Shown here piece after piece: positions 18,484 to 56,690 of a DNA stretch of 64,000 bases. The notes under the pieces are model-generated. The model was not told the origin of the DNA. It saw nothing but the letters and a program-made list of their open reading frames with translations, and searched no databases. The stretch spans positions 248,001-312,000 of the forward strand of contig JAJEKV010000297.1 of the NCBI GenBank assembly GCA_021234155.1, written 5' to 3'. The stretch is from Isoetes taiwanensis. Taxonomy: Eukaryota > Streptophyta > Lycopodiopsida > Isoetales > Isoetaceae. Numbering within the stretch: the first letter of the stretch is position 1; every line of letters begins with the position of its first letter. The translations under genes were made by a program, and so were the position numbers.

Positions 18484-19630
18484 GCTTTAGTCTCTTAAGA
18501 GGAAAGATAAAAGGAAAAGGGAAAAGTGAAGGGCAAAAATGCACGAGAAAAATGGAAGGGAAAAGGCAAAGGAAGAGGAAGGGGGAAAAGGCACCGAAAA
18601 AAGGGGAAGAGGGAAATGGTGAGGAATGGAGGAAGAGGGAAGGGAAAGAAAGGGAAGAGGAAAAGGGTGGGTAGAAGGGAAGGGAAAAGGGCATGGGAAA
18701 GGGAAAGAGGGAAAGAGTATGGATAGGAAGAAAGGGGAAGCGAAAAAAGGACATGGTAAGAGGGGAAAGAGAAAAAAGGAGAGGAGACGGGAAGGGAAAA
18801 AGGGAAAGGGAGGGGAAAGGGAGAAACGAAAGGAAAAAATGGCAGGGGAAAAAAGGGAAGAGGGAAGGGGGAAAAGAGAACGGAAGAGGGAAAGGGTGAG
18901 GAAAGGGGAGAAGGGAAGGCGTGGGGAAAAAAAAAAGGAAAAAGAACAAAGGAGAAAAGGGACGGAAAATGAGTACGTGAAAAATAGGAAGAGGGAAAGG
19001 GTGGGAAAAGAGGGGGAGAAAGGGCACTGGAAAAAGGGGAAGAGAAAGGAAGGAAAAAGGGAAACGGGAGGAGGGGGGAGGGGAGGGAAGGCGAGAAAAG
19101 TAAAATGGAAAGAGGTAAAAGAAAAAAAAGGGAAGGCGAAAAAGAGAGGGGGGAAAAGGGGAAGGGGAAATAGAAAATGAGAAAAGGGAAAAGCCGGGAG
19201 TGGGAAAAAAGAAAAAAGAAATGTGAAAAAAAAGGGGAAAAGAAAAAGGAGGATTGAAAAAAATAAAGCGCGGGGAAGGGCAAACAAGAAAAGGGAAAGA
19301 ATAAAGGTAAAAAGGGAAAATAAAAGGGAGAGGAACAAAAAGGAAGAGCAAAATAGAAAAAGGAAAAAACACGGAATGGAAAGGGGAAAAAGAAAAGAAA
19401 AGAAAAGAGAAATGGAGGGAAAGGGGGGGGGAAATGAAAAGGAAAGAGCGAATAGAAATGGAAGAAAATAGAAGGAAAAATGGGTAAAAGAAAATAAAAA
19501 AGGGAAAAGGGGAAGGGGAGAAATGGGATAGTGAAAGAAAAAGGGTAAATATGAAAACAAAAAAGGGAAAGGGGGAATAAAAACGAAAACCGGGGAACAA
19601 GAGACAAAAGGGAAAGGGAAAGAAGAAGGG
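18484..19630. repeat. 1.1-kb homopurine tract (GGGAAA-type)
   Basis: For about 1,140 bp the plus strand is almost entirely A and G, built of irregular GGGAAA, GGAAAAGG and GAGGGAAA words with rare C or T. Long open frames exist on both strands (Lys/Arg/Gly/Glu on plus; Phe/Pro/Ser/Leu on minus). They are by-products of composition: every frame stays open because stop codons on the minus strand need purines. The tract could adopt triplex (H-DNA) structure. Confidence 0.9.
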
Positions 19631-22600
19631 GAAGTGGGAAATGTGGTCGAATGCTATTAATTGTGTAATTTTAAAAATGTAAATTCGTTTAACAATTGCT
19701 CAAGTGTACCATTTATAGTTTCTACCTATGCTCAGCAATGTTGGGCTTCATTTCTAGTATGTGAAGAAAAAAAGGAAAAAATGATATATCCACACTCACT
19801 ACGTTGATTATTGTTGACACATATATGACGTCAAAGAAATAGCCTACTTTGGTGGCTAACTATATAGAATGTGACATACTTTGTGTTGAGCCGCATATGT
19901 GACACCATATAGCTGATCTTTTGGGGAGAGGGGGTGTTGGGGGTGGGGGGCAGTGGAAGGGAGGGAAGGAGACCACTAACCCAATATGGTGTTCAAATCG
20001 AGCTGGACTTGTTAGTTTCTTTTTCTTGCCCATTTTACATATCTGCAATCTAAAGCACTAAGGGGGTTCACATTTCTCACCGTACAATATGCCTATATGA
20101 ACTTTATGAAGGTTCTTTTGACCAATTTCCTTATGTATACAGAAGACAAAAGGGTACTTTTTTAGGAGTGTTTTCATATTTGTCATAAATAGCATACAGA
20201 GGGGTTCTAAATCTGTAGTTGAAAATTCCTGTACTAGGGGTGTCCTTTGCTACCCTACAAATGCAGGCGGTATTATCAATTTATATATAAGTACATCGTC
20301 TTAGGGTGCTTGAGCCTTCATCCTGTATCATAGAAACATTATGCACATGCAACACTAGCAAGCAAAAACTACTTGGGCTATCTATTTCTATCTCGAGACG
20401 GGTATATATGAAAATTTCTAAAAATATAAAGTGGGCAACCAAGGTCATCATAATTGCTGCACATGCTCTAGACATGCTGTAAAAATATGAGATTGGTCAC
20501 CGAAAAAGGGCAATGAAACACATACATATAAACCAAAATACATTTGCAGATGCAAATACAAAGTAAAATATCACCACCCGAGATCGTGGGTTAAACATGG
20601 CCAGTCTAGTAATGGAGGCATTAAAAATCCATTGTCTCGAGGTCAAGGGTTCAAATACGACCAAACGGTCCTATGGTGGAAACCTTAAACCTGCCATACA
20701 TACTAGATAATCACATGCAAAGCAGCTTCTAGCATATCGCCTCGTAGTGGATTGGCTTCCATGTGATATGTGGACTGTACTCATGATGTGATGATGAATG
20801 CAAATGATGTCCTTCAATAAAAAAAAAAAGGAAAAAGAAAAAAAACTTAGCAATATCTTCTTGGAACTAGCTGTTTTGCTGCTGCATACCCAAAGAATTG
20901 AACATTCTTTGGAGAATATAAGAACATGCATCACTTTTAGAATGATGCACAAAGAATCATTTTGCATTACGAGGAGCTTGGAAGATATTGTAAGAATCCT
21001 TCTTGAAAGCATAATAATTAGACTGCAACTCAAAGTGCCTGAACTGCAATTTCATTTCTAAATAAAAGTTCCGTTGTAATGCAAAAGTCCTTGACTTAAT
21101 GAAGTAATGAGCAAGAGCTCATCAAAACTAATTGTGCAAGAGCCCACAATGAATCCAGGGCATCCGGAATTGGAGCAAAGGGTATCATTGCAAGAAGAAA
21201 CTGGCACCTTGAAAGACCATTTGGCAATGCTGAATCTCCTCAACATCTGAAACAATGTTGGAAAGAGACTTGTAATGCATGCTTTACCTGCTGGTCTGTG
21301 AAACTGGAACATTGCATGGTGCTTGCTAGTCCTGATCCTAAGCTTTTGCAACAATATCTCGATGGTCGTTTTTCTCAGAAGATGTAGGATGCAGTTACCT
21401 TAGCCCAAGTTAAAACTAGTCATTATCATTTGCATATAAATCCCACTTTGGCACTAGGACCATAAGCTTATTTGCTTGCTTCCTTGTCCAGGAAAAATCT
21501 TATAGCTATTGCCTCAAATCACATAGAGCCTCTCCCATGGCATTCCAATGGCCTCAATGGCTCATAACTTTTTTCTTGTGTTTTTTCCTCACATCTTGGA
21601 GTTGATATGCAAATGTCTTGCTGTTAGTTTCTAGGGTTTTTCTTGTTTTCCTAAGTTTGCCCTAGCTTTTGCTTTCAAGATTCACAATGCCATGGCATGG
21701 CTGCAGAATTCACGACGTCAGGCATGGCATGCCCTCATAGTTTATAATCAGTACCGGGCATGGCTGCAGGAAGGAAATAGAGTAGCCTCGTGGGCAAGGC
21801 TTATGTGGTGTAGGGCTTCGAATCCAGTTTAGTCTTCAAGGTATGGCTTAGGTGCCGTTGATTTGAATTACAGCCCAGCTAAATCAAAGTTTCACCTTCT
21901 TTTTGACCGTGGAATCTAGGTTCTACCACCCAATTAGAGAAAGACAATGATTTAGAAGTTTTGTAATTGCTGGTAGCCATAATCAACCTCCTGATTTTCT
22001 TAGCCGGTTTAGCTTACAGTTCAAGGAAGTGTCTGGAGAATGAATCTGTTTATTGGGCATTGTTTCTTGTTCTGATCTCTGCAGAAAGTGATTGTTAGCG
22101 AAATGACAAAAACCACAAAGGCCACGTCCTCATATCTTTCTATTTGCTATTGTTCTTAAAACATGTTTTCTAAACAATGTGCAACACTGAACATGCAAAA
22201 CCATGATAAATTTTTCATTTTCTGCATCTCTATAAATATTGGAGTGATTAATATATCTGATGTATACCATGAATTTATTAATGAGAAAGGGACCAATCCT
22301 AACCAACAGTTCGATGCAAAAATTATAACAGCAGGTTTCAAAAATTATAACAGCAGGTTTTCTTGTTTGATTCCTATTTCCAAAGCTATCTTTCTATTTC
22401 CATTTATCTATTTCAAAATGGGACATTAAGGAAATTGTTTGTTCCATAAAGTTAAAGAAGTAATTTCTGTAAACATGGGATGATTAGTATATCTGATGCA
22501 TGTGTGATGTTTATAGCTACATAGGATGACAAAGATATGCATGCCCACATTGTGGAACATGAAATGGAGCTCGATTTAGATGCATTAAACAAGGAAGGTT

Positions 22601-22785: not shown

Positions 22786-23345
22786 TTACAATGCTAATAG
22801 ATGTTTGGTTTGTGTACCTGTCGAAAGCTTATCACCTGGATTAAAAAACCCCGCCCTTTCAGGTTTTCGAGGAAAAACCCTAGTGATAAGCCTTCGGTAA
22901 GGGGCTTGGACAAACGTAAGGCTGAAAAATTGCTCCCAAAAAACCCACAAATGGAGAAGTCGAAACTGTTGTTGCTTGCCAACCTGTACCTGCACATCAC
23001 CAACACTAGAACAAATGTGTGAAAAAACAAATCTCCCAAAGTTGAGGGGCTGATCACGCGTGCCACGCGACAACAAAAGAAAAACCTCTTCAAATAGAGG
23101 GGCTGGTCACGTGTGCCAGGCGACAAATACATTAAACAATTAAAGGGGAGGGGGGGGGGAGGGTGGGTTTTAAAGAATAGAGAAAGGTACTGCTGAGAGA
23201 GAAGAGGAAGCGCCGATGAGATGTTGATGAAGAACCTTGCCTAATATAACGATCTCCCAACCAGAGAAAGCATGCAATGCACGCATGCGAGACATGCATG
23301 CTCGCCCTCTCTAGAATCTCGATCCGATGGCTCGGATCGATATAA
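22786..23345 (-). mobile_element. Internally deleted LINE A derivative (5' module joined to 3' end)
   Basis: Reading on the minus strand from 23345, the sequence has the same 5' module as at 15048 (CGATCCGAGCCATCGGATCG..., CATCAACATCTCATCG, CAGCAGTACC). It continues through two CAGCCCCTC words and TGTTCTAGTG-TGGTGATGTGC. It then passes almost directly to the LINE A 3' region (RVFPRKPERAGF coding remnant, a GGTTTTC-GAAAACC hairpin and AATCC). ORF2 is missing, so the element is a 560-bp non-autonomous derivative. Confidence 0.6.
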
Positions 23346-26289: not shown

Positions 26290-27740
26290 CCAGTGAACCT
26301 GATTTTGCAAATGATTGTGAGGCTAATAGTCAATTCGAACCAGCGGAGAATTGGAATCTTTTTGTTGATGAAAGAACTACAAAATTGTGAAGAGGAATTT
26401 CGATTTAACACTCGGTTTAATGTTTGTAATGCTACCAGTGAATCAGAACCACCAAAGAAATCCAATCTTGAAGAAAGATGTGATAATTTTGAGGCAGCTT
26501 GTAATTTACTTACAGCTTTTAATAAGTGCTTTAAAACTGCTTTTTCATGTTATACATTCTTGAACCTCTGGAATGCTAATTGTTTTAAAGGTGGTGTTAT
26601 CTAACTTTGTTAATGCTTATTTATTTACTTTACCATGCTTATAATGCTTCTGATTTTAATGCAGGTTTCATTTTATGAGAGATTTTGAAGAGAGTATCCA
26701 AAATTTGAAGTCTCTTTTTCAGTTTTCCATGCACTGAAATCTAGCTTTGTAAGGAATTTGAAGGATAGGAGATGTATTGCTGTGTTTATCACATGAGGTT
26801 AGATTATGTTAGACATGCAATTACCAAGATGAGGTTGGATAAAAAGATTCATGGAACAGAATGTAATTGTATGTGTGTTGTATATGGTCCTGGCCTTAAA
26901 TATGAAGCCAAATTGATGACATATAACTCATCAAGTGATATGTGGAGGTCATTGGTTTGTGCCAAGGACATATCAGACAAATGGTATCAACATAATTGCA
27001 TACTACTGAAATGCAATTCTTGTGCTCCTTCCAAATTGCCTATCTGTTCAAAAGAATTGAATAGACATGCTGCTCACACAGTTGACTGGAAGACATTTGA
27101 TAGAGTAAACACCTGTTGTATTATCTACTTTAGTATGCTATTGTATTTCAGATTATTTCATACTCAATACTAAATAAGTTTTATGGAAAATTACAAGTGT
27201 TTGAACCATCTAATGAACCTAATGGAAAAGGAGGTTTGAAAGTAGTACCAAAACCAATTGTTAAGATCGTGTACAAGACAAGTACTACTATTGATGTCTT
27301 GGAGCATGCAAAGAACGTGCTGACAGATTTTTCTCCCACAATTATGAAGCTAGATGGTGGGCTAAACAATTTAGGGACTGCTTAGCCACTTTTCCAAAAG
27401 GCACAGTTGTATCAGTAATAGACTTTACTGAGAATTACACATTAAAAATACAGCAAGAGATCCAAAGTTTGCGTTGGACGAATGATCAATGCACAATACT
27501 GGTGCACATCACATACAGACATGCAACTGCTGCATAGGTTCAAGAGAATTGTGTAAGTAAATGTGAGAGGAACATAATCAAGGAGACTCACTTCTATGTT
27601 TCAGATGACAAAGAACATGATACTCTTTTTGTCCAACATTGCCTTAATAAGCATGCTCAGTTTCTATCCAACATTGCCTTAATAAGCATGCTCAGTTTCT
27701 ATCCAACATTGCCTTAATAAGCATGCTTAGTTTTTGTAAA
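26290..27740 (+). pseudogene. Uncharacterised transposase-like gene, copy 1 (decayed)
   Basis: Plus-strand protein pieces in order. An acidic N-terminal part comes first (to 26604). A possible 3' splice site (TTTTAATGCAG, about 26664) precedes FYERF-REYPKFEVSFSVFHAL. At 26772-27110 a Cys/His-rich domain contains CCVYHMRLDYVRHAI, CNCMC, MWRSLVCAKD, WYQHNCILLKCNSC and VDWKTFDRV. A linker (27197-27385) follows, then VIDFTENYTLKIQQEIQSL and THFYVSDDKEHDTLFVQHC (about 27405-27650). The last two segments align with VVDF/ENYTFKEQEEVQS and THYYVSDDREHDTL in the transposon at 34.8-35.1 kb. The Cys residues suggest a zinc-binding DNA-recognition domain and the conserved acidic residues a DDE-type nuclease; both are inference. 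Stops, frameshifts and an internal 35-bp triplication show it is dead. I find no terminal repeats for this copy. Confidence 0.6.
27632..27736. repeat. 35-bp tandem repeat, three copies
   Basis: The unit beginning TCCAACATTGCCTTAATAAG occurs at 27632, 27667 and 27702, nearly identical (one or two changes in the last copy). It amplifies transposase coding sequence in a non-multiple of three, so it wrecks the frame and postdates loss of function. Confidence 0.9.
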
Positions 27741-29962: not shown

Positions 29963-30130
29963 CTAATTTTGGTGTTCTAATCTGTAGCTCCAAAACACTC
30001 CAAAACGTCGGAACATCTCTTCCAGCGCAACAGATTGCTTGTCGTACCTGTTATAGATCCTAAGATCCACCTTCCTCCCAATCGGAACTCCATCCATATA
30101 GACTTTCACATTTAGAATGATCGGCCCTGT
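29963..30130 (-). pseudogene. Aux/IAA-type PB1 domain fragment
   Basis: Minus-strand stretch reading KVYMDGVPIGRKVDLRIYNR, then YDKQSVALEEMFRRFG and a stop. This is the start of the PB1 (domain III) oligomerisation module of plant Aux/IAA transcriptional repressors or auxin response factors: the conserved Lys of KVYMDG, the GR-K-DL turn, and the helix ending LE-MF. About 55 residues only; domains I and II and the acidic half of PB1 are absent. It lies head-to-head with the SMT2 pseudogene, 10 bp away. Non-functional scrap; family call from the domain pattern. Confidence 0.7.
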
Positions 30131-30138
30131 TCTGCAGA

Positions 30139-31115
30139 AACAAAGGGGAAAAGGGCTGTTGATCTTGGTGGTGGATCTCTTGCAAGGGAGCAGGTTGCTG
30201 ATAACTATCGTGAGTATGCAGCTTTCTTTGACAAACCAGCGCAGATCACCATGAAAGAGCGAGTGCCCAAGCTTGTAGATACCTTCTATAATCTGGTAAC
30301 AGATATTTATGAGTGGGGTTGGGGCCAAAGCTTTCATTTTTCTCCGGCAGTATCTGGCAAGTCTCATAAAGAAGAAACACATTTGCATGAAGAAAAGGTT
30401 GCGGATCCGCTAAAACTGAAGCCTGGAATGAACGTGTTGATGCTGATTGTGGCGTCGATGGACCTATGAGGGCGATTGCTAGTCATTCTCGAGCACATGT
30501 GGTGGGGATTACTATCAACGACTACCGGGTAGCAAGAGCTAGAAGTCATAATAAAGGCTCGGTTAGATAACCTCTGTGGCGTTATTTGTGGCAATTTTTG
30601 AGTATGCCTTTCCCGGATAACTCTTTTGATGCGACTTATTCCATAGAGGCAACATGTCATGCACCTCGGCTAAAAAGATGTTTATCTTTGAGATCTATAG
30701 TGGTTTTAAAGCACAGGCATTTGTATGTAACTTATGAATGGGTCACCACTCCTAAGTATAATCTTTTGATGATCTTTGAGCATAGGGAGATCATCCATGG
30801 CATTGAGCACGGTGATGCCTTGCTGTATTAAGGAGCTTCGGTCGGGTTGGTGCTATTGCCAAAGAAGTGGGTTTTGAGGTTACGGAGGGCGAGATTTAGC
30901 TCTCCCCGCTTTGCCATGGTGGAAATATTTGCAAATGGGAAAGCTTTCATATTATAGGAATCATGTGGTAATTGCATTGCTCTCACATCAAGGTGTGGTT
31001 GAAGTTCATGAAATGTTGTTTAAGGCCGCGATTGTATCTTACCCGTGGTGGTGGGCTGGGATATTGATTCAATGCATCTTTTAGTTTGTGCATAAGCTTG
31101 ACACTTGGGAGTTGG
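30139..31115 (+). pseudogene. SMT2: Sterol C-24 methyltransferase (SMT2-type) processed pseudogene
   Basis: Near full-length, intronless remnant of a plant 24-methylenesterol C-methyltransferase (transfers methyl from S-adenosylmethionine to the sterol side chain at the ER). Visible in order: a YAAFF-P region; VDTFYNLVTDIYEWGWGQSF (30280-30339), the signature sterol-binding segment; the SAM-binding motif as CGVDGPMRAIASHSRAHVVG after a frameshift near 30440; the MPFPDNSFDATYSIEATCHA segment (30604-30663); YVTYEWVTTPKYN; and the C-terminal GVVEVHEMLFKA. About five frameshifts or stops break it. The absence of the family's introns suggests an mRNA-derived copy, plausibly made by one of the LINEs here. 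Confidence 0.85.
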
Positions 31116-32909
31116 CGGCACTTTGGGGGGCAATGAGTGGGCTTAAGTGCCTTTGGAACAATGTTATACTTTTACCCCATTGATTGTAGTAGTTCTTTTT
31201 TGCCATTCAAGCCTATGCTTTAGTTTGCATCACATATGCGCATTATATCTCAGTTGTGGAAGGATCTGGAAATTGCCTGAGATTTACTGCTCAATTTCTG
31301 ACCCTGTTAGAGGCAAACTGTGATTGCTCTCATGACCAAACTTCAAAGGAACCAAAGTATCCCTTATCTACAGAAGGGTAAAAGCACGCTGTGGTGTTCC
31401 AATTCGGCTGTCCCCCCAAAATGTGGCGTTGCATCCACCACTTTTGTGGTATAAAAATATAATTATGGCACCGCTCGGCCAAGGATTATTTAAGAATAGA
31501 GTCCCAATTTGTGGGGGAAATTCTAATTTCAAAACTAAAATTCAAATTCAAATTCCTATTCTTTGGCCCCTTCTGTTTTCTTTGCCTACGATCTGTTCTT
31601 TGGCTCCCTCCCTGGCGCAAGCTCCAATCCATTGTGGATATGGATGTCAATGAGGTAATCTGTCCACAAGCCGGCATTCGAGACGAGGGAGAAACGAAGA
31701 AGAACCAAGGAACAAGAAATGTTGAAGAAAAGACGCCGGAGGAAAAGAAGAAGAGAAGAAAAATTGGAGCTTGCAAAATTGGCGTAAGGATTCGGGTTCA
31801 TCAAGAAGTGCAAGCGAAGCGCCGTATTGTCCTTAATTTGCTAACGTCTTTCCATAAGCGGACCAAAAAGAATGGAGGATATACGAAGAAAGAAATTTTA
31901 CTTGATTTTTTTGAGGGATAAAACATTGGAAAAATTCATAGGTGAAGAATTAAAGGATTTGGAAGCCAAGAGCATCGTTATAAAGGAGCTTACGGTACTC
32001 CATGCGGTATCAAACTCTCTACCAGCAATGAGCGCCTAGCGACCAAGAATAAGCTGCCTTGCAATGTCAGTACCATGCCGTCGCGATTCTCGAAACAAGT
32101 GACAAAATCAGCCGGTGAGATCTTGAAAGGTATTAAGTGTTCACCCAAGAAACCCGCAAAAGGCAAAAAAAAAAGAGGGAAGAGATCGATTACAATGGTG
32201 GGAAATGGTTTTTTTTTACAAGAGGGCTAAAAGATTCGATGCAATTTCAGGATGAACATATAGAAAAGATTCAAAAATTTTGGATTGAGAACACCGAGTG
32301 TCTCCTAACACAAAGGATGTTAGAACTAGAAGATTGGAGAGAAATGTAAGAGAAGAACATGCTGCCCACTATCCGGAGGAATCTGAGGTTAGTTTATTTA
32401 CATTATTCATGTTTTCTTAGTTATGGTGCTTAGTGTGGTGGTGCATGTGGTGGTTATTGTGTTTGTACGAGTGATTGTGGTGTCTTGTATGCGATTATGT
32501 GAATTGTGTGTAGTTGACTCTAGTGCGAAATGCAATATTTAATGTTTGGAATATTATTAGAACATGACAAATTGAGTACTCCTTTCTTTGGGTGTGTATG
32601 CAGGTCTAAAAATATTTGAGAATGATAACTAAGCGGTCACGAGATACAAATTTTTGTTGAATAAAGACAATTTTTTGTCAGATTCAAGCACAGCTCTGTT
32701 GGAAAGTATGATATATTAAAAAAAGGATCTTACAAAATTTGGCTTTACAAAATTTGGCTTTCCATTGAAAGCTCTGTACCCGAGAACTAAATTTACATGC
32801 ATGATTTCTAAGCAACAGAAATCTTTGGTATGCCCGGCTCGAACTGGTGCATCCAAAATTATTGTTTTTACGCACTAAAGCATCTAAGCTTTTGCGGTCA
32901 ACCCGTAAT

Positions 32910-33295
32910 TTAACGGGATGAGGTTTGCGGTGCTTCCTGCATCCCCCGATGGTAAGTACGCAATTCTGCCAGTAAAACCCGTTGTTGCAGAGTCAGAGCG
33001 GACAAGTGACAGAGAACAAATATACCAGCTGCCCTTGCAGCAGCATGCAACATAAGCTCATGGACCTTGTCTAAGAGCTCTCTTCCTGTCAATCTGACTT
33101 CAAGCATAGCCATTGAAGGCCCAGCATCCAGTCTGTTGTATGCCTTTAGGTTGGATTCGAAATCAGCAAAGAAGGTGGAGATTTAGGCATATCCACCTTC
33201 AGAGATTGATCACGAGCCCTATTTAACATGTGCCGAATGCCCTCCTCGCTCACCCTACAATAGCCGTAGTGATCTCTGAACATCCCTCCTACCAT
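32910..33295 (-). pseudogene. Small helical protein gene inside the transposon, one frameshift
   Basis: Minus strand, start ATG at 33293-33295 (MVGGMFRDHYGYCRVSEEGI...). The frame holds to about 33148, then a shift of one base joins KAYNRLDAGPSMAMLEVRLT and AGIFVLCHLSALTLQQRVLL, ending at a stop at 32910. About 125 residues, mostly amphipathic helix, with several Leu/Ala-rich segments. No family recognised. It is transcribed against the transposase and lies in the interruption of the transposase coding sequence, so it is either cargo or a nested relic. Confidence 0.45.
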
Positions 33296-33574
33296 GTTGC
33301 CGGAATGAACTTGTTCGAATTGGCGCGAATTGGGAATGAAACGCCAAAAATCGAGGCGTAGGAAAGGATTTAGGACCCGGATCTTTTCTAATGATTAGAA
33401 GAGGAATGTAATTATTATCAGGGTGTACGAATTTCAGAAGTGTTTATGAGAGCAGGCTAGGCAGATTTTTTATGTCAGACGAAATAGGATAAAAGTGATG
33501 TGATGTGATGGTGTGGTGTGGTGTGGGTGTGTGCATGTTAATGTATGATATGTGTGGATTCAATTTTATTTATT

Positions 33575-34050
33575 CTCCCCCCTCACCCCACCACACCCCA
33601 TCTACCCCACCACCATAGACTACCACCACATCTTTTACGGTCACCACATTACCACCATGCACACACATCCCACCACATCCCACGCCACCCCCCCCACCAC
33701 CACCACCCTCCACCACCACCACATCATACCACAATCCACAACACCACACCACACCACCACCACTACACCCCCCACCACACACCACCACGAGCATCACACC
33801 CCACCACCACACTCCACCACACCACATCCATACCACCCACACCACTACACACACCACCACCACCACCCCACCACCGGCCACCACCACCCCCCACCACCAC
33901 TCCACTACACTCCACCACCACCCCCCCACCACCACACCCCACCACCACCACAAACCACTCCACCACCCCCCCACCACCACCACTCCACCACCACCACCCC
34001 CCCACCACCACACTCCACCACCACCACACTCCACCACCCTCCACACTCCA
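33575..34050. repeat. CCACCA-type minisatellite with GGTGTGG flanks
   Basis: For about 470 bp the plus strand is C/A-rich (CCACCA, CCACAC, CCACCACCCC). Immediately left (33495-33540) and right (34055-34120) the bias flips to G/T-rich (GGTGTGGTGTGG). Long frames here (Pro/His/Thr on plus; Gly/Trp/Val on minus) are repeat-encoded. A second tract with the opposite polarity is at 39704-40195. Confidence 0.9.
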
Positions 34051-36107
34051 CCATTTGGTGTATGGTGTGTGGTGAATGGTAATGTGTGTGTGGTGTGGTG
34101 TGGTGTGTGGTAATGGCCAACACTAAGGTGCTGCGTTGCAGTGAATATGATGAGTGTGGGGCATGGTATGGTGCATGGTTTGGTGTGGTATACACATCTA
34201 ACAGTTTAGTGTTCATTTCATGCGAGATGCTATTGTTCAAGAGGTTTACGGACCAACATCCGAGAAATTAAGATTCGATCTTGAGCTTTTGAGAAGCTAA
34301 AACCCTGGTTTGTTGTGAAATTGAAGGACTTCAATAGTTTGTTGCATTGATGCGTGAGGATGCAAATGCTAGTGGATGGACTCAATGGGATGAGAACCAA
34401 ACATCAGAAGAATTGCACTTGCACTTGCGATGTTTGTAGATCACATGAACTTGGTCAATGCGGGGCACACCAGCATAAAATTGCAAGTCTAATGGAAGTT
34501 TGTGGAGATCTATATTGTGTCCAAAGAGTGAATTAGATGAGTTTCACAAGAAGGCGTGCATCCTTGGAAATTGTGAGTGATGTGTGGAATCAAGAAGTTT
34601 CATACCTGTCCCATGGAAGGAAGTGGGTAGGGAAAGTGAAATGGGAGTACATTGACTATGAAAAGACAACGTCTCGAGTTACGGTGGGAGACTAACTCAT
34701 CGGAGATACAATGAGGCGGAACCCAAGGAGCTTACGGATAAACCGAAGAGCGTCTAAAATCTTTCCATTGCATAATTTCGGTACCAATGGCGAGGCAAAA
34801 GCAGTTTAAGGAGCTTCGGAGAATCTCCCAGCAGATGCATGTCTCGGTAGTGGATTTTGAGAGAACTATACATTCAAGGAACAAGAGGAGGTGCAATCGA
34901 TCTTGTTGGGTCAATAACAGATTACCATTTTGGTTCAAATAACATATCGGTATGACTCGAAAGGGTGAGATGAGATTATCAAGGAAACACATTACTATGT
35001 ATCGGATGATAGGGAACACGATACTTTGTTGGGTGCAATACCGCTTCATGAAGCACCACAAATATCTGGGGCGAAAGGAAGGGTTCAAAGAGACATTATG
35101 TGTTTTCGGATGGTGCAAACATCTCAATTCAAGGCTTCTAGACCATTTTACTTTGTGGCTAGGTACACAAAGCGACAATCGGCGTCTATATGATGTGGAA
35201 TTTTTTTGGTTCTAACCACGGGAAAGGTGAACACGATGGCAAAGCTTGAGTTGAAGAGATGGTTAAGACAAGCGCAATTAAAATAATTAAAATTGGGTAA
35301 TGCTCATGAAGTGGTAGAAGTTCTCAGAAGAGATGTTTACTTGTGGAACATCAGGAGTGGATGAACACATCCGAAACCAAAGAAGAGGAAGAATATAAAA
35401 AGGTTCTTTTGGGAAGTCAAGGTGGAGGATATAGATAGAAAGAAAGCATGGGGTGCGAAAGGATTTTGGACACTAAGGCAGATCCATTGTGTACATGCAT
35501 TCAATCTTGAATCTCCATTGCGGTTGCATCTGAGGGAACTTTCATGCTACTGACTCGCTTGGATGGCATGTGGGACGGTTATTGTGAACAAGCACCACGT
35601 TGATGATTGGAAACTTCAAGTTATTGTACCATCCTCCAATGTGCATGCCGACATTGAGGGACCGTAAATCAGCCAGTCCTTGTTCTCCTCCAATCCACGA
35701 TGTTAGCGGAGGCACTTAGAGTTGGTGATAATTTTCTTTGTCGTTGCTCGAAAGGGAATGATGAGGGTTCTGAATTTTGGATTCGATGTGCACAAAACCA
35801 AAATGGATAGTGGAGAAAGACTTCCAACTCAATGGAATATGGTACCTCATAGGTGGCAGTGTCATAGAAGGTATGTATTACAAGAAGGGCCAAGATCAGC
35901 CGTCGGCTATGATCTTTGCGGTAAAGGCGCCTTAGGCACGGTATTCACAACACGGATCTGTGCAATGTCGGACTTCACATGCCACCAACTAAGCGTCAAA
36001 AGCGAGGATTGTATATAATTTTGGATCCTTTAGATGAGGAGAAAATTTTTACGAGAATTTGCGAAGTTCTTTCGATGATGATGAAATGTAAAACCATTAC
36101 GTAGTTT

Positions 36108-37258
36108 TCAGAACTCATGTGAAGTTTTGTGCTTCAATTTGTGAAAATGAGTTTGTCTTGATTTCTTTTGAAGATTTGAATTCTTCACGAGCACTTGATT
36201 CCTTTGTTTGTGAGATGAATTGAATATGAATTTGAATTGAAATGAATCGAGGTTACAATAACAATTATGTACATAAGAAAAGATATCTGATGATTTAAGT
36301 ACGAGGTGACTCATGCACCTACATACTTCCCAATACATATGTTCCTCTCGGTTCCGGCTTTTTGTTGCTTCTAATCTTAAAACTTCAAGCATGAACACTC
36401 TAACATCAACTAGATCACGGTCCGAAATGTCCACAACCTGCGATTAACCACACTTTGTCAATAATAGAGTTTGGTTTGTCTGCTGCATTTAAGTTGACTT
36501 ACTAGATCGGGGCAACAATATATTCCTCCTTTCAAGTACCCCCTCACAAATTTGTGCATAAAGCGAACATCTGGCGAGGAATACATGAATGACCATCGGT
36601 TTGAAGAGGCGTTGGAAATTTTCACAACATCGAGGTTGTAAAGCTGAAATTATTGTGTCCAAGCAATTCCAGGAACCTGCACTCAAAGTTTGTTGTCATT
36701 GTGCCACAACAGCAAAATGCAATGAGCAAGCACTAACCTCTCGAATATATGCATACGCCATGCAAGCCCGAGCTATCAAAGTGATATATCCCCGGTTTAT
36801 ATCTCATGCGAGACGCGTGATAACTTACAATCGAAAAACAGTCGATTGATGTCCATCACAAGCGGTAAAAAAACATGTCTTGGCACTTATCCAGATTCAC
36901 ATGTTTCCTTATTGTTTTGTAACTATTTGTGTCCTTGGACAATGTCGAGTGAAAAAGAGGGTCAAAGAAATGAAAGGGATGATTCCATGTATCTGCAAAC
37001 ATATGCATATCATCTGGCACGATCCTGATAATCACAAATCAGATGAAAGTATCACCTTGAGAAGAGGAGGATCAATTGATCATTGAACCACTGCGTATCG
37101 GCTTCCAAAATTTTGATGTCGGTGGAGCTAATCCACGGCGGTTTCAGTTCCCTCGGCACCACTTCCAAATGTGTATTTGGCTTTAGATAGTCAGGGACTG
37201 CCGAAGCTCTATCATCTCTAGTTCTAAACACACACGAGAACATTTGCTCACAATCCAT
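36108..37258 (-). pseudogene. Minus-strand multi-exon gene remnant in the transposon, unidentified
   Basis: Several protein-like blocks with plausible splice sites. At 37258-37055 is an open frame (VFRTRDDRASAVPDYLKPN...). At about 37010-36880 a block follows a TTATCAG acceptor: FADTWNHPFHFFDPLFHS. At about 36580-36505, PDVRFMHKFVRGYLKGG ends at a GTAAGT donor (36499-36504). After a TCGCAG acceptor, 36434-36300 reads VDISDRDLVDVRVFMLEVLR. The GT-AG intron between the last two (about 36440-36504) is convincing. I recognise no family. It lies directly downstream of the FCP1-type phosphatase on the same strand and may be its 3' continuation or a second cargo gene. Confidence 0.4.
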
Positions 37259-37349
37259 TCAAATATTTTAAATTGAAAAAGTACAACACATATCATAGAA
37301 TTTTTTTTACTTATATTGACTTTCAAAGAGTTTTACAAGATTCATTTAT

Positions 37350-38087
37350 GAAAATACTTGTCGAAGCATTTTCATGCGTTCTTGCGACTCTTCAAAATCC
37401 CACATGTTCCACATTTGATGTTCCTTCACATAGGCGGCACACTTTCTGCACCCGAAGTCCCTCAACCATGGTTTGAGTTGCTCAAAGGAAATTGGAATCC
37501 AACCTGTCGGGGAGCAAAACTATTTGGACATATCATTGTATTAATTTGGTTGGCGAGAACCCTTATATCTCTTTGTCATCTATCAACAATGTTTTTATCA
37601 CCTGGTATCTCCAAAATTTCTGGTACACTTTGAATGAGATCCTTAAGGAAAATTGGCTTATTAACCACTTTTAATTTTGTGTTGGTGCGGTCATCATCGA
37701 TTCCAAATAAAAGAAATCGCCCTTATATTCCTGCAAACAACTTTCTCATCAACAAGTCAACATTACTCTTAGCCATCTTTGGACCACAATGCAATCTCAA
37801 ATTTTGAAAAACACCATTCTAAGAACTCACGTAATCCGGGCACGGAAGCGCTAACTTTTGATTGTTCAATTTACGGGCCGGTCACTTACGGCTCGGCGAT
37901 CGGGGATCCTCTCTTTCAAGTCATAAAACTTGCCTAAAACCCCATTAAAATCCAGAACAAGGAGAATTTGAGTTAACCTCTTGGTTTTCTTGGTTGAGGT
38001 TGTATTGGACTCGTTGAGCAGACGCATCTTGTCCGGGATCGGGGTTTCTTTGTCAACTTCATCACACGTGCATCGCATTTGGCTCAT
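37350..38087 (-). pseudogene. FCP1-type HAD phosphatase, transposon cargo (decayed)
   Basis: Minus strand from an ATG at 38085-38087. After a short basic N-terminus, QILLVLDFNGVLGKF is HAD motif I of the FCP1/SCP (NLI-interacting factor) phosphatases, with DxNxV in place of the usual DxDxT as in many plant members. Shifted frames then give PGLREFLEWCFSKFEIALWS (motif II region, about 37825-37770), SNVDLLMRKLF, GIDDDRTNTKLKVVNKPIFL (about 37710-37650) and LKPWLRDFGCRKCAAYVKEH near 37440. Such proteins dephosphorylate Ser/Thr residues, classically on the RNA polymerase II C-terminal domain. At least three frameshifts and two stops. Being within the transposon's terminal repeats, it is probably captured or resident cargo. 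Confidence 0.75.
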
Positions 38088-38639
38088 ATTGACACCAAAA
38101 CTTTTTACGGTGAAGGACCCCGTCTGAGAATGAATCTCAAGGGAATTAATTCCCCCCTAAATCGGATGCACTAGGAATCTCTTCGTGATGGCTTCTAGTT
38201 GCATTAGCATTTATCTACGCAACATAATTGAAATGAGGAAGACCACGAGAAAAATACAAAAAATAAATCATGTATGTGGCATCGGTACTTATTTGATACG
38301 ACTACATTGATTGACTATCCAAATTTCGTTTTGGAGTCTCCACATCGTCGTATTTGGGATTGACTTAGGAGTATCAAATGGGGTGAATTCTAGGTACAAC
38401 AGGAGGTATCTTGATCTCATAGCGATCGAGGCGTGGATAATTGTTGGATATCCTTGGTCTCAAATTTACGCATTCTGCAAACACTAAGTCAGTAGAACTG
38501 TGACAACATCGGTAAACATTAGTTAAGGCACTTTTTTGCAGCGAATCTATATTGTTTGCGGCCGAACAATATCAAGCACGGTGAGTTGACAACCATTCAA
38601 GAGGGTCACCCACGGGCTTTTTACTATCTTTTCGATGTT

Positions 38640-38716
38640 CTGTTTATATATATCTAAAGTGCCCCTAAAATGAGCGGCGATCTCATCACGAGGGGCACTT
38701 TAGATACAATAAACAG
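38640..38716. repeat. 26-bp-arm hairpin inside the transposon
   Basis: Left arm 38640-38666 (CTGTTTATATATATCTAAAG... ) is complementary to 38691-38716 with only three or so mismatches. The inner 14 bp, TCTAAAGTGCCCCT, are perfect. A 24-nt loop contains TGAGCGGCGATCTCA, itself weakly palindromic. Candidate small-RNA precursor, subterminal structure or tiny MITE. Confidence 0.75.
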
Positions 38717-39600
38717 GACAAACAAAAAGACTAAAGCCGGCCGGGATGGAAGAGACTAAGCCGGGGATGAAAGAGACACGAGTACAAGCATCGAGACTTC
38801 CCAAACCTTGCTTTCAGCCCTCTTTGGACTTACTTGTGTCTATTTGTGGTACCACTCGAACACCAAAAGCCAAAAGCCATGTCTCGATCATAATGTGGGC
38901 ACAAGCGGGGCTGCCGGCCGAGGTTCTAGAGTAATACGCAAAACAAATTCAAAATCAATAGAGTCTTTAGGCGAGGGTTAGAAATGATAATATTTACCTC
39001 AAATGGTGTGATAGACATGGAATGTGATCTTGGTGGATCGCATTACGCTATCTGGCCGGCAACATTTTACCCTCCATTTCAGATAACGTCCACAAAATGG
39101 ACAACCTTCATCACCCTCTTCTTACGCCTCGAGGAAGCATTGGAAGTGCATGATCTAAAGGAGTGTCATGAGCGAGAAAAAATCACAAATCTTTGCATTC
39201 GAGGTAGCAGCTCAGCGATAAGTCTTCACATGCCTTTAGCTCAATTTCGGTTTACGCTAATTCCTTATTTAATTGTTTCAGCCCGAGGCAACAACGTACC
39301 ATTTAGCTCTTCATCCTTTAGTTAAACACAACCTGAACACCCTCTGCTTTGCTTTTCGGTTCTTTGTCATGATTGATTTCCATCATTGCAAATCAGCTCT
39401 AATTCGATGCTTTATGCCCCATCAACTCAATCTTTCTTTTGATATCATTTTTCCTATCCTCGTTTGCTTGCAATCGTTGCTTGCATCTGGCGATGTTTGC
39501 GATCAACCATTCCTTCACAAGAAATACGCCATAGTACGCAAAACAAAACACTACATTATATGTCGACCTCCTAACATAGTAAGCCCGCGTCTTGATGGAA
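38717..39600. other. Transposon interior; one possible Cys-rich coding scrap
   Basis: Short duplicated word AGCCGG-CGGGATGGAAGAGAC / AAGCCGGGGATGAAAGAGAC at 38728-38770. On the minus strand near 39130-39000, EEGDEGCPFCGRYLKWRVKC looks like part of a zinc-binding domain, but the frame is short and stops precede it. Nothing else recognised. Confidence 0.3.
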
Positions 39601-39703
39601 AACCACAATCACACACCACACAACACAAGGTAGTCTCTACACACTACCACATACCACACACCACACAATATCGGTTGCCGCGATTACACACCACACAACA
39701 TTG

Positions 39704-40195
39704 GTGGTGGTGGTGGTGGTGGTGGTGGTGGTGGTGGTGTGTGTGGTGGTGGTGGTGGTGGTGGTGTGTGTGTGTGTGGTGGTGGTGGTGGTGGGGTGTG
39801 TGGTGGTGGTGAGGTGTGGTGGTGGGGTTTGGTGGTGGTGGTGGTGGGGTGTGTGGTGGTGGTCGAGTGTGGTGGTGGAGTGTGGTGTGGGACATGGTGG
39901 AGTGTGGTGATGGGGGTGTGGTGGTGGGGTGGTGGGTGTGGGGTGTGGTGGTGGGGTGTGGTGTGGTTGTGGTGGAGTGTGGTGGTGGTGGATTGTGGTG
40001 TGGGACATGGTGGAGTCGATGGTGTGGTGTGGTGTGGTGTTGTGGTGGTGGGTGTGGTGGTGGTGGTGGAGGAGTGTGGTGCTTTGGTGTGTGTGGTGGT
40101 GGTGGTGGTGGAGTGTGGTGGTGGTGTGTGGTGTGGGGTGTGGCGGTGGGAGATGGTGGGGAGATGGTGAGGTGTGGTGTGGGACATGGTGGATG
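39704..40195. repeat. GGTGGT-type minisatellite with ACCACAC left flank
   Basis: About 490 bp of G/T-rich repeat (GGTGGTGGTG, GTGTGG), preceded at 39600-39695 by C/A-rich sequence (ACCACACAACAC). This is the mirror image of the tract at 33575-34050, whose core is C/A-rich with G/T flanks. Open frames are repeat-encoded. Dense GG runs could form G-quadruplexes. Confidence 0.9.
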
Positions 40196-40419
40196 CCAAC
40201 AACTCACCACCACCACACATACCTCATCTATCATTCTGGTATCCATTGCACGAAATGCCCCACAGATGGCATCATAGAGACACAACATGACAATACAACC
40301 AACATGATGCAAAATGGTAGTAGACATACCTGATTCTTGAAGTGGATTTGATGTTACCTTTTCTGTGTTGATAGAAACAATCTAGATCAAGCTTGAGATT
40401 TTTTTCTGTTGTAACACAA

Positions 40420-41001
40420 CTAATAATTGAACATACCTGCAATGGCATGTTTTGGTCTCAGAACATTGCTCTGCTTTTCTGTTTTGATTGTGAGTTCAGA
40501 TTGAATGTGTAGTCTAGAGGAACCTGATTTGGTTTTTTCCCTATCATCTTCATCATCTCTGTCACTTTTACTATTTTCCTCCTCGTCAGGTTGGATTTGC
40601 CTATGCTTTCTCTTGGGTCTAGAAGAATTGGCCTCTGCTTTCTCATCGGGAGTTTTATAATAATCCGAGAAGCTCTTCCAATTAACGACCTCCCCTTTAT
40701 ATGCGGATAATAAGCCCTTTGCCGGGTTCAGGAGCCATTCCATCCCATGTATGTGGCTTCCCTGTAATTCTTTTGTAAATTTGCATGAACTCTTTGTATT
40801 GTTCATTGCTCGATTCTTCAACTTTGTACAAGAAAAACATATGCCTTAATTTTTCGGTTTGAACAAAACATTTGGGGAAAATACATGTAGCGATTTATTT
40901 GGAACTCTGTCACCCCAAAGCTTCTTTAGATCTTCGTGGGGCACAATCTCTTGTTTGAGGAGAGGTTTCATCGTGTAACGGTGGCGTTCAATTGACTCCA
41001 T
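40420..41001 (-). pseudogene. Basic/acidic protein gene near the right end of the transposon
   Basis: Start ATG at 40999-41001, about 230 bp inside the right terminal repeat. Reads MESIERHRYTMKPLLKQEIV and HEDLKKLWGDRVPNKSLHVF. After a one-base shift comes KLRHMFFLYKVEESSNEQYK and YKRITGKPHTWDGM, then after a second shift near 40715 GEVVNWKSFSDYYKTPDEKA. The C-terminus is highly charged and nuclear-protein-like (RPKRKHRQIQPDEEE, DRDDEDDREK). No family recognised. Reading inward from the terminus, it is probably an accessory gene of the transposon. Confidence 0.5.
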
Positions 41002-41227
41002 TAGGGTTCAATCGGCAAGAAGCGGCAAAAAGCAGAGAAGAGGTGATTATTTCTTAATTCAAAAAGGTGGACAATGGCGTGGCATAACATTCAAAATAAC
41101 CGACGCTCATTAATTCGCACTCCCTTAATCTAAAGCCGGTATGCACCACCCGATTCTACCACAAAGGTGGTGCCAAAATGTGGCGTCAAAATGCACGTTT
41201 TTGATACACCACAACGTGCTTTTACCC

Positions 41228-42009
41228 AGAAACCTATAAGTTCAAGGATTTATGGAATTGTCCAAGAATGCTTTGGTAGACTTGCAGCAAGAAAATTTCA
41301 GTTTGAGGGAGAGTTTTTTCAAACAGAACTTTTCTTCCATTTTGAGGTTGAGAGAGAGTAGATTCTGTATGTTGGTGTGTTCTTGCTTGATAAGAGAAGA
41401 CGGCAAGGCAAAATGCTATGACATGTTAGTGCTATGAGATGTTAGAGTATCGAGGACTTCAAGTTCTTGGTCGGAACTGGACGGCCATCAGCAAATCCGG
41501 AACCGATTGCTCCCCAAACTACACCCTTGGCTATGACTGTAACCTCTGCAACCTCCTTCTTTACAGCGCCGGACTCCTTAATCGATTCCCTGGAACCTGA
41601 AAACTTCTTTCCAAGACCAAGACAGAGCTCCGTCTCCCTAAAGTTGAGATCCAGACATTCTTCTGTTCCATATCCAAGCTATCAACTGGGGCGAGAGATG
41701 AAGTAGCTTCTGATAAGCCAATATAATCGTGAGCCTTCAGTGTGCTGCCGCTTTGCTACTATGTTCGGGCTCAATACAAGATATTTCATCTGAAACATTA
41801 TCCATCATATCTCTCGCCTGACGAACCAATTGGCTCAAGCTATAGGCTGCCAGTGTAATCAGAATTATCAGAGTTAAGCTACTCTTCCAAGTGCACTCTT
41901 AAATTCAAAACACAGATTGATGCAATTGGAACATGTAAAGACAGAGTGGAAACTTGTTTGGACATGAGGAGTCTAAATGTAAAGCTTAATATCTTAGATT
42001 CTATTGCAT
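41228..42009. other. No gene seen
   Basis: Sequence right of the transposon. Two overlapping short frames (41167-41437) and a Ser/Thr-rich one (41467-41706) show no domain. May be host gene debris interrupted by the transposon. Confidence 0.35.
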
Positions 42010-49375: not shown

Positions 49376-52300
49376 CAAATATCAACTGTCAGGTTAGCCT
49401 GCTGGAATATAAATACATTAAAAAATAGTAAGATATTTACCATGTCAGAAGTTTTAGATAATGTTGATATAATTTTTTTTCTGGAAACATGTGAACATGA
49501 GGAGAAAGGTTTGCCAGATATTTTTGGTTTTACTTTGTTACATTCTGGTTGGAACAATAAGGGATGGAGGCTTAAAAGTTTTGGAGGTATTGCTTGCTAT
49601 GTGTTTGGGGTCCGGGCACGGGATCGCCTGAGGGACAGATCTCTGTGAGATCCTTGAAGTCCGGCAGGGTAAATCCTGAGACACTCTTGTCACGCGGGAT
49701 TTTTGCTAACAGAGGAAAGAACAAGAAAAACTCAGATAAAACAGCAATTGCAATACACAATGAAACACACAAGACACTTGTGGAGAACACGGCAATCCAT
49801 TGATCAAAACAAGTGTACAATGAAGGCTCAAAAGAGCGCACAACAGGCGACCAGCATGTCTGCTCTGTAGTGACACAAAAGAACACTCTGAACCCTCCCG
49901 AAGGAGCAAAAATGCTACAATATATAGGAACACGGAGTGGCCTACGGGCCTGAATCTGATCCTCATCATGACAACGCGTGCTCCACTACTTGGGCACTCG
50001 AACAGGAATCTGAGCTGTCCGCGGCCGTGCTAACAGACAAGTAGTGGCCCGCCGTGGGTCCTACCTTTGGGTCTTCTGCTTCTTGGAGGAGCTTTGACCC
50101 GCCGTGGCGCCTTGTGGATCCCTCTTCTTGGACACCGTGGCCAGTGGGGCCTCGCCCTCATGCAGCAAGTATAGACCTGTGTGTCTGCCAGGCACAGGGC
50201 TAACACTATGCTAGGAATGAAATTACACATGCAATAGAGGTGCGAAGGCATAAGGCATCACCGCAGAGTATCTGGATTGAGCTAGCTGGTAGAACAGGCA
50301 AAATATATGTTGGTGGTTGTTATTTTCCGCCCAGGGATTCACCGGTGTATGATAAGGGGGACCTTGATAGGGATGACCCGTTTTTCCACTTAGAGCAAGA
50401 TATCCTGGCAATGAGTAGAACAGGGGAAGTCTTGCTATTGGGGGATTTTAATGGACGCACTGGTAATAACCAAGCAGCATTGGTAAGTCCAGATGGGAAT
50501 GAGGAGTGGTTGGAGATGATGGATAGTAGGGAACTTGAGAAAACTGGGTGGAATAGGATATCTGATGATATGGTGAAATGGCCAACTCCGCAAGGCCGAC
50601 ATGTTCTACATATGTGTAGTGGTTTTGACATGGTAATTTTCAATGGCACAACAAGATACCCGAGATCGGGTAAATGCACCTGTAAGAATGCAAGCGTGGT
50701 AGACTATGTCATTGCCAAACCTTCCTTTGGGGAACATATTGTTAGCATATCCATTGGGGACGAGAATGAAAACTCGGACCATGTGCCGATATTTGTTGAA
50801 ATAAGGGTGCAATCGCATGGTAGGCAGCGGGTTGATACCACAAAAAAACAACAGTTGCGATTGAGATATGATAAGGCGGAGGAATACAGTGATATATGCG
50901 AGGAGAAAGTCAAGGCTCTTGTGTGGCCGAACTCATTACAGGAGATAAGTGATATGTTGACCAATATTGTGCTTCAATCAGCGGACAGTTGTTTTGTCTC
51001 TTATCGCCAAAAGATGGGATTGGCCCTGCAATGGCTGGTTTGACATGGAATGCAAGCGACAGCGGGAAAAATTCAAATCATCACATGGAGCAGCTAAGGC
51101 ACATGAAAGAAAGGAGTACACTAAGCTGATAAAAAACAAAAAGAGAGTGTATCTATACAGGAAACATGAGAAGATGGTAAAAGGGTTGTTGGTGGACCCA
51201 AAAAAAATTCGAAGCGACTCAAACCTTTGAAAGCATCGCGGATAATGAATTGCAGTAGAGATGCTTATGGCGATGTCTGCGCAAAACTTTATGATGTGCC
51301 GAGGGGGCAAAAAGATGGCAGATGACACCGATACTATGGCAAGTATGTCGACTTTCAATTGTAGAAGATGTACGAGGGGGCCGAGAGACACTAATGGTAC
51401 AAAACATGGTGATGCTTATGACCGTATGGAAGCGCTTAAATGGGCCGGGGAGACGGTTGAAAATAAGCTGGCAGATATGTTTAATCTAGCTTTGGCAGAT
51501 GGCTTCCCTGGGTCATGGCAAGTTAACAGGGTTGTACCATTGCACAAGTTAGGGGATAAAAAAAGATCCCGCAACCATCGACTATCATGGTGGGCGGCTT
51601 GCCAGTATGCAAAACTGTTTGCATCCATTCCGGAGCAAAGGTAAGTATGTGGGCAGAAGACCATAATGTCAGGGCGGTGGGACAGGCGGGTTTTAGGCCC
51701 AAGAAGTCCACGACCGACCATTTAGTCACTCTTAGGCCCATGATGGACTCAGTAGTGGGGAAAAGGAAACCGTTGTATGCTATTTTTGTGGATTTTAGCA
51801 AGGCTTTCGATATGATGAATAGAGAAAATCTGGGACACAGGATGGTGGATCTTGGTATCCCAAAGGAGCTCAGACATGCGGTGAGGGTACTTTATGATAG
51901 GGTACTTGTGCAACTGTCATTTCCTTTTGTGGAATTTTGTGACGAGGTAGTAGAGAGCAATATGGGTGTGAAACAGGGGTGCCCCTTATCACCTACTCTA
52001 TTTGGGTTATTCATAGACCAGTTGGAAGAATGGATAGGAGCACACGGGGGAGATGGCACACCTCTGTATGGATATGTTCTCAGGCTCTTACTGTATGCTG
52101 ATGATATTGTTCTGCTATCCCGAAGCATACATGGGATGCAAAAACACTTAGATGCATTGGCGACATTACGCGATAATCGTGGTATGCGGTGAATCCCTGG
52201 ATAAGACCAAAGTTGTGGTATTTGGGGGCAAATAAGACCGATCACATTCGGCTACATTATATGGGCAAACATTGGAGGTGGTAGATAACTACAAATATCA

Positions 52301-53808: not shown

Positions 53809-55153
53809 ATGGATCCGGTAATTTTAGGTATGATTGCAATGCTTCTTAGGGCTATTTTGCTAGGTTTAGCAATGCAGAAGTTCTGCTTGGATCTCATTCA
53901 AGAGAACTTAACTGGAAAGATCCTATGGCAATAGTCGAGGAAGAAGATTTGAAGAAGACAATACTAGTTTTCAATGTGCATCTTCAATCTTGCTCTTGCA
54001 ACGTCTCGACTAAGAAGACCACTTAGAAGATTAAAGGGTTGTAAGAGGGAGACCACACAATGGGATAACATTGACAATCATGCTTGGAATTGCCTTCCCT
54101 CATTTGAAGATGATATGTAGCATCAGTTTTACAGAATGAAGAGAAGGTCATTTGAAAAATTGGTTGGCCTGATTGTGCCATACCTGATCAGGCCAGGCCA
54201 GAAGGTTAGGCCCCCTGTAGATCCCAGGAAAGCAGTAACCATGGTACTCTACTTTCTTTCTCATAAAGAGATGCCATTGCATGTTGGCCAAAGGTTTTAT
54301 GTTGGAAAGGCCACAGTCCAATAATACACCAAGAAAGTGACTTTAGTTTTAGCATCCAAGACCATGCTTTACAAAAGATTTATTGCCTTACCCTCGGGTC
54401 AAAGACTACTTAATATCATGAAGGAATTTTGGTCTGCCTAATATTTTTGGTGCTGTTGATGGTTCTCACATATTTCTGTACAGAAAGCCATGGAGAAAAG
54501 ACAAAGGGGATGATTATTACAGCAGACACAAGAGACATTCCTGCCTCATGCAAGGTGTAGTAACACACTCTCGAATATTTGTCAATGTATGTGTTAGTAG
54601 AACAGGTTCTGTGCATGATTCCAATCAGTCCAAGAAGAGCCTATTGTACAAGAGGCTAGCATCAAAACAGATTTTGCAGGAACCTATTGTTTAAATGACA
54701 GGAAAAAAGATTAACAGGAGAGGAGAATTATTGGATGCAGATGTAACAGTTAATATACCTCCAATGCTTTTGGGGGATTCAGCTTATCCAAGCAGAAGGT
54801 TTTTGATTAAGGTTTTTCCAGATGGCACAGGTGCTTCTGGCAAGTTCAACAAGAGGATTTGCAAGGGCAGGGTTTGTGTTGATAATGGATTTGGTATAGT
54901 GAAAGAGGAATTCAGAATTTTGAAAGCTCTGCCTATTCATGTTGGTAGGGCAGCCAAGATTATTCATGCTGCCTGTGTGTTGTGGAATTTCTACATAATG
55001 GAAGACCTGGATTTGGAAATGCTCCCTCTAGAAGCAGAATTGCCAGATATTGCCTACTATGAGACCGAGGACATGAATAAGAAATTGAAGAAGAAAGGGG
55101 ATTTGATAAGACATGTAATTTTTCAGAATAGAGATGGTAGAAATTTAGTATGA
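53809..55153 (+). pseudogene. PIF/Harbinger DDE transposase (HARBI1-type), copy 1
   Basis: Starts at ATG 53809 (MDPVILGMIAMLLRAILLGL). A broken stretch follows, then, from 54136, MKRRSFEKLVGLIVPYLIRP, VDPRKAVTMVLYFLSHKEMP and VGKATVQ followed by an in-frame TAA (54322-54324). The catalytic core begins GAVDGSHIFL (Asp codon 54458-54460) in a shifted frame. The second Asp is in LLGDSAYPSRRFL (54776-54778). The third-acid block is CVDNGFGIVKEEFRILKALP (54875-54934). Here the expected Glu is Asp (54881-54883), whereas copy 2 has Glu. Ends NRDGRNLV at 55153. Three or more shifts plus stops make it inactive. Confidence 0.9.
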
Positions 55154-56024
55154 TTCATTCATTTCCATTCATTTCATGTTGTTTGGGTTGTTCCCATTAA
55201 TAAAATGCATTCTGCCATTTGTGGAGCAGAAATATGCACATTGCACATGAACTGTCCTTGAATTAGTGAAAACAAGTTTGCATTAAGAAGTAAAACAATT
55301 GCAGCACCTAATTACTCAATGTTTTCATTTTGTGCACTTGAGCGAATACAACAGAAACTAAACAATGTTTGTATCTCAAGAATGATAAAGTAAAGAAAGT
55401 CTGCATGCGGTTTGCAGACTTTAAACAATGTTTGCACAATGAAACAATGTTTGCACAATGAAAATAAACAAGTGCAGTACTCAATATTCAATGTTTGCTT
55501 TTCATAAATGAACAGATACAGTAGAAAGTTTGCATCTGATTGAAATGAACAAGATAATGAACAAGATAATGAACAATTATAGAAGATGATGAGCTGCTTT
55601 TATTTCAAAAAACTCAGGTCTGTTACATGAACAAATTTAAAGGAAAATAGACTTGCCACAGAAATTTTTGTGGTCCTTGAAATGCTAATAGACAACAACT
55701 AAACACTCCAAAACTCCATGAACCTCCTCCACTTAACTGTAACAACAGCATTTACGAAAAATGTATTAGTGAAAATGACAAATAAACTCAAGTGAGGAAT
55801 ATGTGTGGAAATCCCAAAACCTGTATTCACATTTCATGGATTTACAAAAATACGACCATTTCATCATGGTCTGAATCCAAAATAAGGCCTATGGCCGGTT
55901 CAGTATCATACATTCTTTCAGAGATTTAAACTAAACAAGAAAAAAAAAAAAAAAGACTGAAATAAAAAAAAGGGGCTGAGTTCCTGAAGAGGCGCAGAAA
56001 AAAAAGGTTCTTCACAACAGCAGG

Positions 56025-56387: not shown

Positions 56388-56690
56388 AACAATAAAGATT
56401 CTAGCGCTAGAAACGAGACATGCATAATGGAATTTAAAGAGACGTTGTACGAAACCTTTATGGAATTATACTTTAAAACTAGTCAAGATCAGGAATATTA
56501 CTTCATGCTCATTTAAATTCCAATTGAGATCCCCATACTACGTTGAAAGATAAGTTCCAATCATATTAAACACGAACAAAACATACTCTTTTAACTAACT
56601 TCCATAAGCTGAAGAACATAACAGAAACTAAAAAATAAAAAAATTGAAAATGACAGTGCAGGACAAAGGTCCATACCTCTGAATTTCATA

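Follow-up and report, generated by a model that had tools for sequence, protein, structure and literature searches.

The interval 31376-41227 of the 64,000-nucleotide stretch of Isoetes taiwanensis DNA analysed here (contig JAJEKV010000297.1; hereafter the window) represents one copy, old and no longer active, of a large autonomous DNA transposon that most likely belongs to the Sola superfamily (perhaps to Sola2). It is a real, heavily decayed cut-and-paste transposon of a poorly catalogued type, but probably not a new kind of element. The initial annotation had taken the interval for a large DNA transposon that makes 4-bp duplications and contains a decayed transposase along with other coding sequence, and this description is supported. 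In the mechanism that we propose, binding of the transposase to the 22-bp ends, possibly also to the subterminal motifs, would have been followed by excision of the element and its joining to a target with a 4-bp stagger, whose repair would have left AGAA on both sides.

Ends and target duplication

The terminal features of the element are as follows.

31372-31375, no strand: left target duplication AGAA, read directly in the sequence
31376-31397, plus strand: left terminal inverted repeat (TIR), 22 bp, GGGTAAAAGCACGCTGTGGTGT
31416-31429, plus strand: left 14-bp subterminal motif, CCAAAATGTGGCGT
31436-31451, plus strand: left 16-bp subterminal motif, CACCACYTTTGTGGTA, hairpin-like
41157-41172, minus strand: right 16-bp subterminal motif
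41173-41186, plus strand: right 14-bp subterminal motif, CCAAAATGTGGCGT
41206-41227, minus strand: right TIR, 22 bp, GGGTAAAAGCACGTTGTGGTGT
41228-41231, no strand: right target duplication AGAA, read directly in the sequence

The two ends, which enclose 9852 bp, are identical at 21 of 22 positions in inverted orientation. They are the only two matches to the TIR at up to 3 mismatches in the 64 kb, where shuffling the window 100 times gave an expectation of 0.00. We also scanned the window for inverted ends lying 0.3 to 20 kb apart and flanked by an exact repeat of 3, 4, 5, 8, or 9 bp, dropping low-complexity ends and one-letter flanking repeats. This returned 8 pairs, among which the pair of the element ranked third with a score of 19; 7 of 20 simulated windows (order-2 Markov) contained one qualifying pair, and their top score was 15. 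The inverted ends flanked by AGAA, as the initial annotation had placed them, are thus confirmed and stand above chance. The two higher-ranked pairs (scores of 27 and 25) both derive from one perfect 32-bp inverted repeat (14661-14692 and 23310-23341, with outer ends 8.7 kb apart), and their "flanking repeats," TCGA and GATC, are palindromic; besides these palindromes inside the repeat, no clear target duplication was found for it. A search for the 22-bp ends in viral contigs gave no match.

Inside the ends, the 14-bp motif CCAAAATGTGGCGT lies in the same orientation on both sides and at a nearly equal distance from either end, and the 16-bp motif CACCACYTTTGTGGTA is inverted at the opposite end, with 15 of 16 positions matching. 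The base C precedes AGAA on the left and right alike, so that a 5-bp duplication, CAGAA, is possible, provided that the right TIR does without its outermost base. We prefer the 4-bp duplication, as for this one copy it gives symmetric ends and is the simpler reading.

The transposase and its relatives

The left half of the element holds a gene reading inward, and a second relic lies outside the element.

26692-27681, plus strand: incomplete second transposase relic, broadly of the same family, lying outside the element
32146-32408, plus strand: N-terminal part of the decayed transposase; best-fitting probe P0032
32409-34214, plus strand: putative intron with approximate boundaries, containing a CCA-rich tract (33664-34037)
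34215-35917, plus strand: main part of the decayed transposase, including the predicted catalytic core; D205, D290, and D331 of P0016 retained

Reading frames joined by eye over about 34390-36020 served as the first query and found 12 proteins (best E value, 7.3e-58); a profile of these found 298, 120 of them listed. Because frames joined by eye could bias the search, 122 relatives were run against the untouched window with tblastn. All 122 matched it at an E value of ≤1e-3. For many of them the top match fell on the second copy (26.6-27.7 kb); among the matches listed the best one within the element was P0016 (E value, 3e-47; 34285-35917). When 45 long relatives were aligned with tolerance for frameshifts, P0016 did best and scored 819, compared to a mean of 109 (standard deviation, 14; maximum, 143) for 20 shuffles; roughly the final 50 residues of this alignment are spread across distant positions and are meaningless. 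These results bear out the decayed transposase-like gene that had been proposed to read inward from the left. Restricted to 32100-36030, the P0016 alignment contains 504 matched codons, 220 of them identical (about 44%), and it requires 25 frame changes and passes 6 stops. This copy is dead. P0016, P0003, and their relatives belong to the same transposase family and share its invariant residues, but most of them are uninterrupted.

For the N-terminal part, probes from six relatives were aligned to 31376-34300, and all six beat every one of their own 60 shuffles; P0032 scored 111 at 32146-32408, compared to 41.8 ± 7.0 (maximum, 58) for its shuffles. Two of the six probes (P0035 and P0106) bridge to the main part across 1839 to 1842 nucleotides, and therefore the gene is probably split by an intron of about 1.8 kb, which would hold the CCA-rich tract. 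The remaining four probes stop or put their ends elsewhere. Open frames extend upstream of the matched N-terminal part to about 31640 and are putatively coding.

Among the matches listed, the relatives include proteins of the moss Ceratodon, the liverwort Calypogeia, the conifers Cryptomeria and Taxus, and the streptophyte alga Klebsormidium. When 48 relatives were compared with Pfam, none matched a transposase family at an E value of ≤0.001, and the sole match of any kind was one to DUF6597, below the cutoff. The domains of PIF/Harbinger, hAT, MULE, CACTA, Tc1/mariner, and piggyBac, as well as the retroviral integrase domain (rve), were absent from all 48 at that threshold, no NCBIfam model matched any of the 48, and seven pieces of the element itself gave no Pfam family at an E value of ≤5. 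The same copy of Pfam recognized DDE_Tnp_4 in an open reading frame (ORF) of the window at 54695-55147. Because none of the 48 relatives scanned matches a Pfam or NCBIfam transposase model, despite the moss, liverwort, conifer, and algal members, annotation relying on these libraries would be expected to leave such elements unlabelled. Two relatives have additional sequence. The Klebsormidium nitens protein P0035 (1180 amino acids, predicted) carries leucine-rich repeats ahead of the transposase, either from a gene model join or as a real fusion, and P0108 (1153 amino acids) has a weak OTU protease-like stretch after it (E value, 0.045, below the cutoff). Pattern searches in the DNA around relatives gave 65 matches in viral contigs and 28 in genome contigs, none of which was confirmed.

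In the predicted model of one relative, the core is RNase H-like and of the integrase type, and its fold resembles that of retroviral integrases. Three aspartates, D205, D290, and D331 (P0016 numbering), are invariant in the 48 relatives, are located in this model where RNase H-like cores usually have them, and are all retained in the decayed element; we infer that they form a catalytic D-D-D set. Other superfamilies can also make 4-bp duplications. Those of Academ and EnSpm can be about 4 bp long. For Ginger1 they are 4 bp, and for Ginger2 they are 4 or 5 bp (PMC10045372). Together with the integrase-like fold, this could suggest an Academ, Ginger, or EnSpm relative. However, Pfam gave no match to the rve sequence that would mark Ginger1 or Ginger2, nor any CACTA-type match, in any of the 48 relatives, and likeness to integrases in fold is common to many DDE/D enzymes. 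We regard such a relative as very unlikely.

A tree of 42 rows (40 of the 122 relatives plus the two window copies), midpoint rooted and with very long branches that limit how it can be read, groups the element with 12 relatives (13 of the 42 rows; support, 99/96) and leaves the second window copy unresolved. Amphiura and two further proteins are separated from the remaining 39 rows (support, 100/95). This separation of the plant and algal rows, the lack of any family match among the 48 relatives, and the fact that the likeness to Sola is one of description and not of direct protein comparison would all suit a plant- and alga-centered lineage of DDD transposases forming a separate superfamily, with only the 4-bp duplication in common with Sola. 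We consider this unlikely. The anatomy of the element fits the published Sola definition on every point, there are plant genomes whose annotation already includes Sola or Sola-2, and being missing from Pfam does not mean being missing from repeat libraries.

The second transposase copy lies 3.7 kb to the left of the element. Its alignment to P0016 contains 2 frame changes. It is cut short by a 35-bp repeat present in about 3 tandem copies (27632-27733) and is 37% identical (90 of 244 residues) to the protein of the element; no ends were recognized for it in the inverted-end scan of the window. Two copies within 15 kb that are only 37% identical hint at a diverse family in this genome. As such relics occur here and the ends of the element are known from one copy only, it could be asked whether chance alone placed the transposase relic within an unrelated element or between two unrelated inverted sequences. 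This is highly improbable: the ends and their flanking repeats score above chance (19 compared to 15), the transposase starts its inward course close to the left end, and both the type of transposase and the length of the duplication are those described for Sola. The autonomous Sola-type transposon remains our preferred interpretation.

The right-hand side and other features of the window

Three features were recorded on the right-hand side of the element.

37500-37979, minus strand: remnant of an FCP1/NIF-like phosphatase domain; lower boundary approximate
39702-40149, no strand: TGG-rich tract, mirroring the CCA-rich tract of the left gene
40423-40845, minus strand: right-hand open frame, directed inward

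There is moderate evidence, from alignment to decayed sequence, for the phosphatase domain. The phosphatase domain of P0123, a plant FCP1/NIF-like protein that itself carries NIF (E value, 3.7e-19), scored 141 against the minus strand from 37979 to about 37500, compared to 69 ± 9 (maximum, 106) for 100 shuffles and 64 on the plus strand of the element. The aligned region includes LVLDFNG and L-L/I-DD stretches, which we take to be HAD-type motifs; the tail of the alignment jumps 4.5 kb and is meaningless. The stitched phosphatase piece matched Pfam NIF with an E value of 0.0046, below the cutoff, and had no match in the PDB up to an E value of 1; as a query for homologues it returned a single protein, P0123 (E value, 3.5e-3). 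The rest of P0123 has no match in the element, whose domain, unlike that of P0123, is decayed and lies inside a transposon. Several genes had been proposed to read inward on this side; the scores support one decayed domain, and the right-hand side may comprise one gene or more. The open frame at 40423-40845 had no relatives in the Pfam scan and homologue search.

The phosphatase-like domain, which resembles a host FCP1/NIF protein, is probably captured cargo and less likely an accessory protein; like the transposase, it is broken. A speculative possibility, in our view a doubtful one, is that the element represents a streptophyte-centered DDD superfamily outside both Sola and the protein family libraries, made up of large elements in which a second gene, originating from a host FCP1/NIF phosphatase, aids transposition and is not a mere passenger.

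A Ulp1/C48 protease was suspected by eye, from the order of motifs, at about 37210-36500 on the minus strand and was rejected as unsupported. The stitched pieces had no Pfam match, the PDB up to an E value of 10 offered thioredoxins, a glutamate receptor, and NAD kinase, and the frameshift-tolerant test gave a z score of 0.1. The CCA-rich and TGG-rich tracts, which mirror each other in the inward-reading halves, are 72 to 79% complementary over 57 to 123 nucleotides in their longest pairs; their low complexity alone may account for this.

Elsewhere in the window, an ORF at 29966-30409 on the minus strand matches AUX/IAA (Pfam E value, 5.6e-13), and within 29966-31100 this fragment adjoins an intronless, putative sterol methyltransferase-like fragment on the plus strand, identified by eye; the two are possibly captured or retrocopied gene pieces. 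At 54695-57906, a Harbinger-type transposase ORF (DDE_Tnp_4, plus strand) is accompanied by a Myb/SANT ORF (minus strand), as in a PIF/Harbinger element. ORFs of non-LTR-type reverse transcriptases (RVT_1) are present at 15983-16714 and 51560-52189. A 1.2-kb tract at 18470-19699 is nearly all purine on the plus strand and open in all three minus-strand frames, and the GC and AT skews of 18001-20000 are 0.555 and 0.449, respectively.

Comparison with Sola and other superfamilies

The initial annotation had left the choice between a Sola-like transposon with cargo and an undescribed superfamily. The former fits better and the latter is not favored, because a candidate D-D-D set is present, Sola elements of plants have been published, and the annotations of one conifer and one fern already list Sola or Sola-2. 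No description of this element was found in the portions of the open-access literature that were available, nor did the letters of its motifs match anything in the open-access literature. Kolobok and piggyBac are TTAA specific (PMC9587614), and the element has AGAA instead.

Several points weigh against the Sola assignment and the cargo. The assignment was made from published descriptions of Sola elements, and the catalytic role of the three aspartates is one that we infer. The 4-bp length rests on one site of a single copy, where 5 bp is possible, and AGAA is not of the AT-rich AWWT form reported for slime mold Sola2 (PMC3627910). The domain of P0123, which scored 141 in the element, scored 117, 104, 93, and 96 on unshuffled stretches elsewhere in the window. 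Finally, the link to Sola-2 of Cryptomeria japonica, a species that encodes the transposase relative P0078 and has 56.7 Mb annotated as DNA/Sola-2 (PMC11539532), is circumstantial.

Sola elements are also listed for Physcomitrella and Capsicum (PMC9033089), and 1.57 Mb of Sola is recorded in the fern Ceratopteris (PMC6890710). The second gene of slime mold Sola2 is Fanzor1 (PMC3627910), whereas that of our element is phosphatase-like. As described in a review, Sola has a DDD transposase, 4-bp duplications, TIRs of 11 to 1124 bp, and lengths of mostly 2 to 9 kb and sometimes over 15 kb, and it is present in the moss Physcomitrella (PMC10741241). The element, with AGAA outside symmetric ends, TIRs of 22 bp, a length of 9852 bp, a candidate D-D-D set, and a plant host, resembles Sola, by description, in all these respects.
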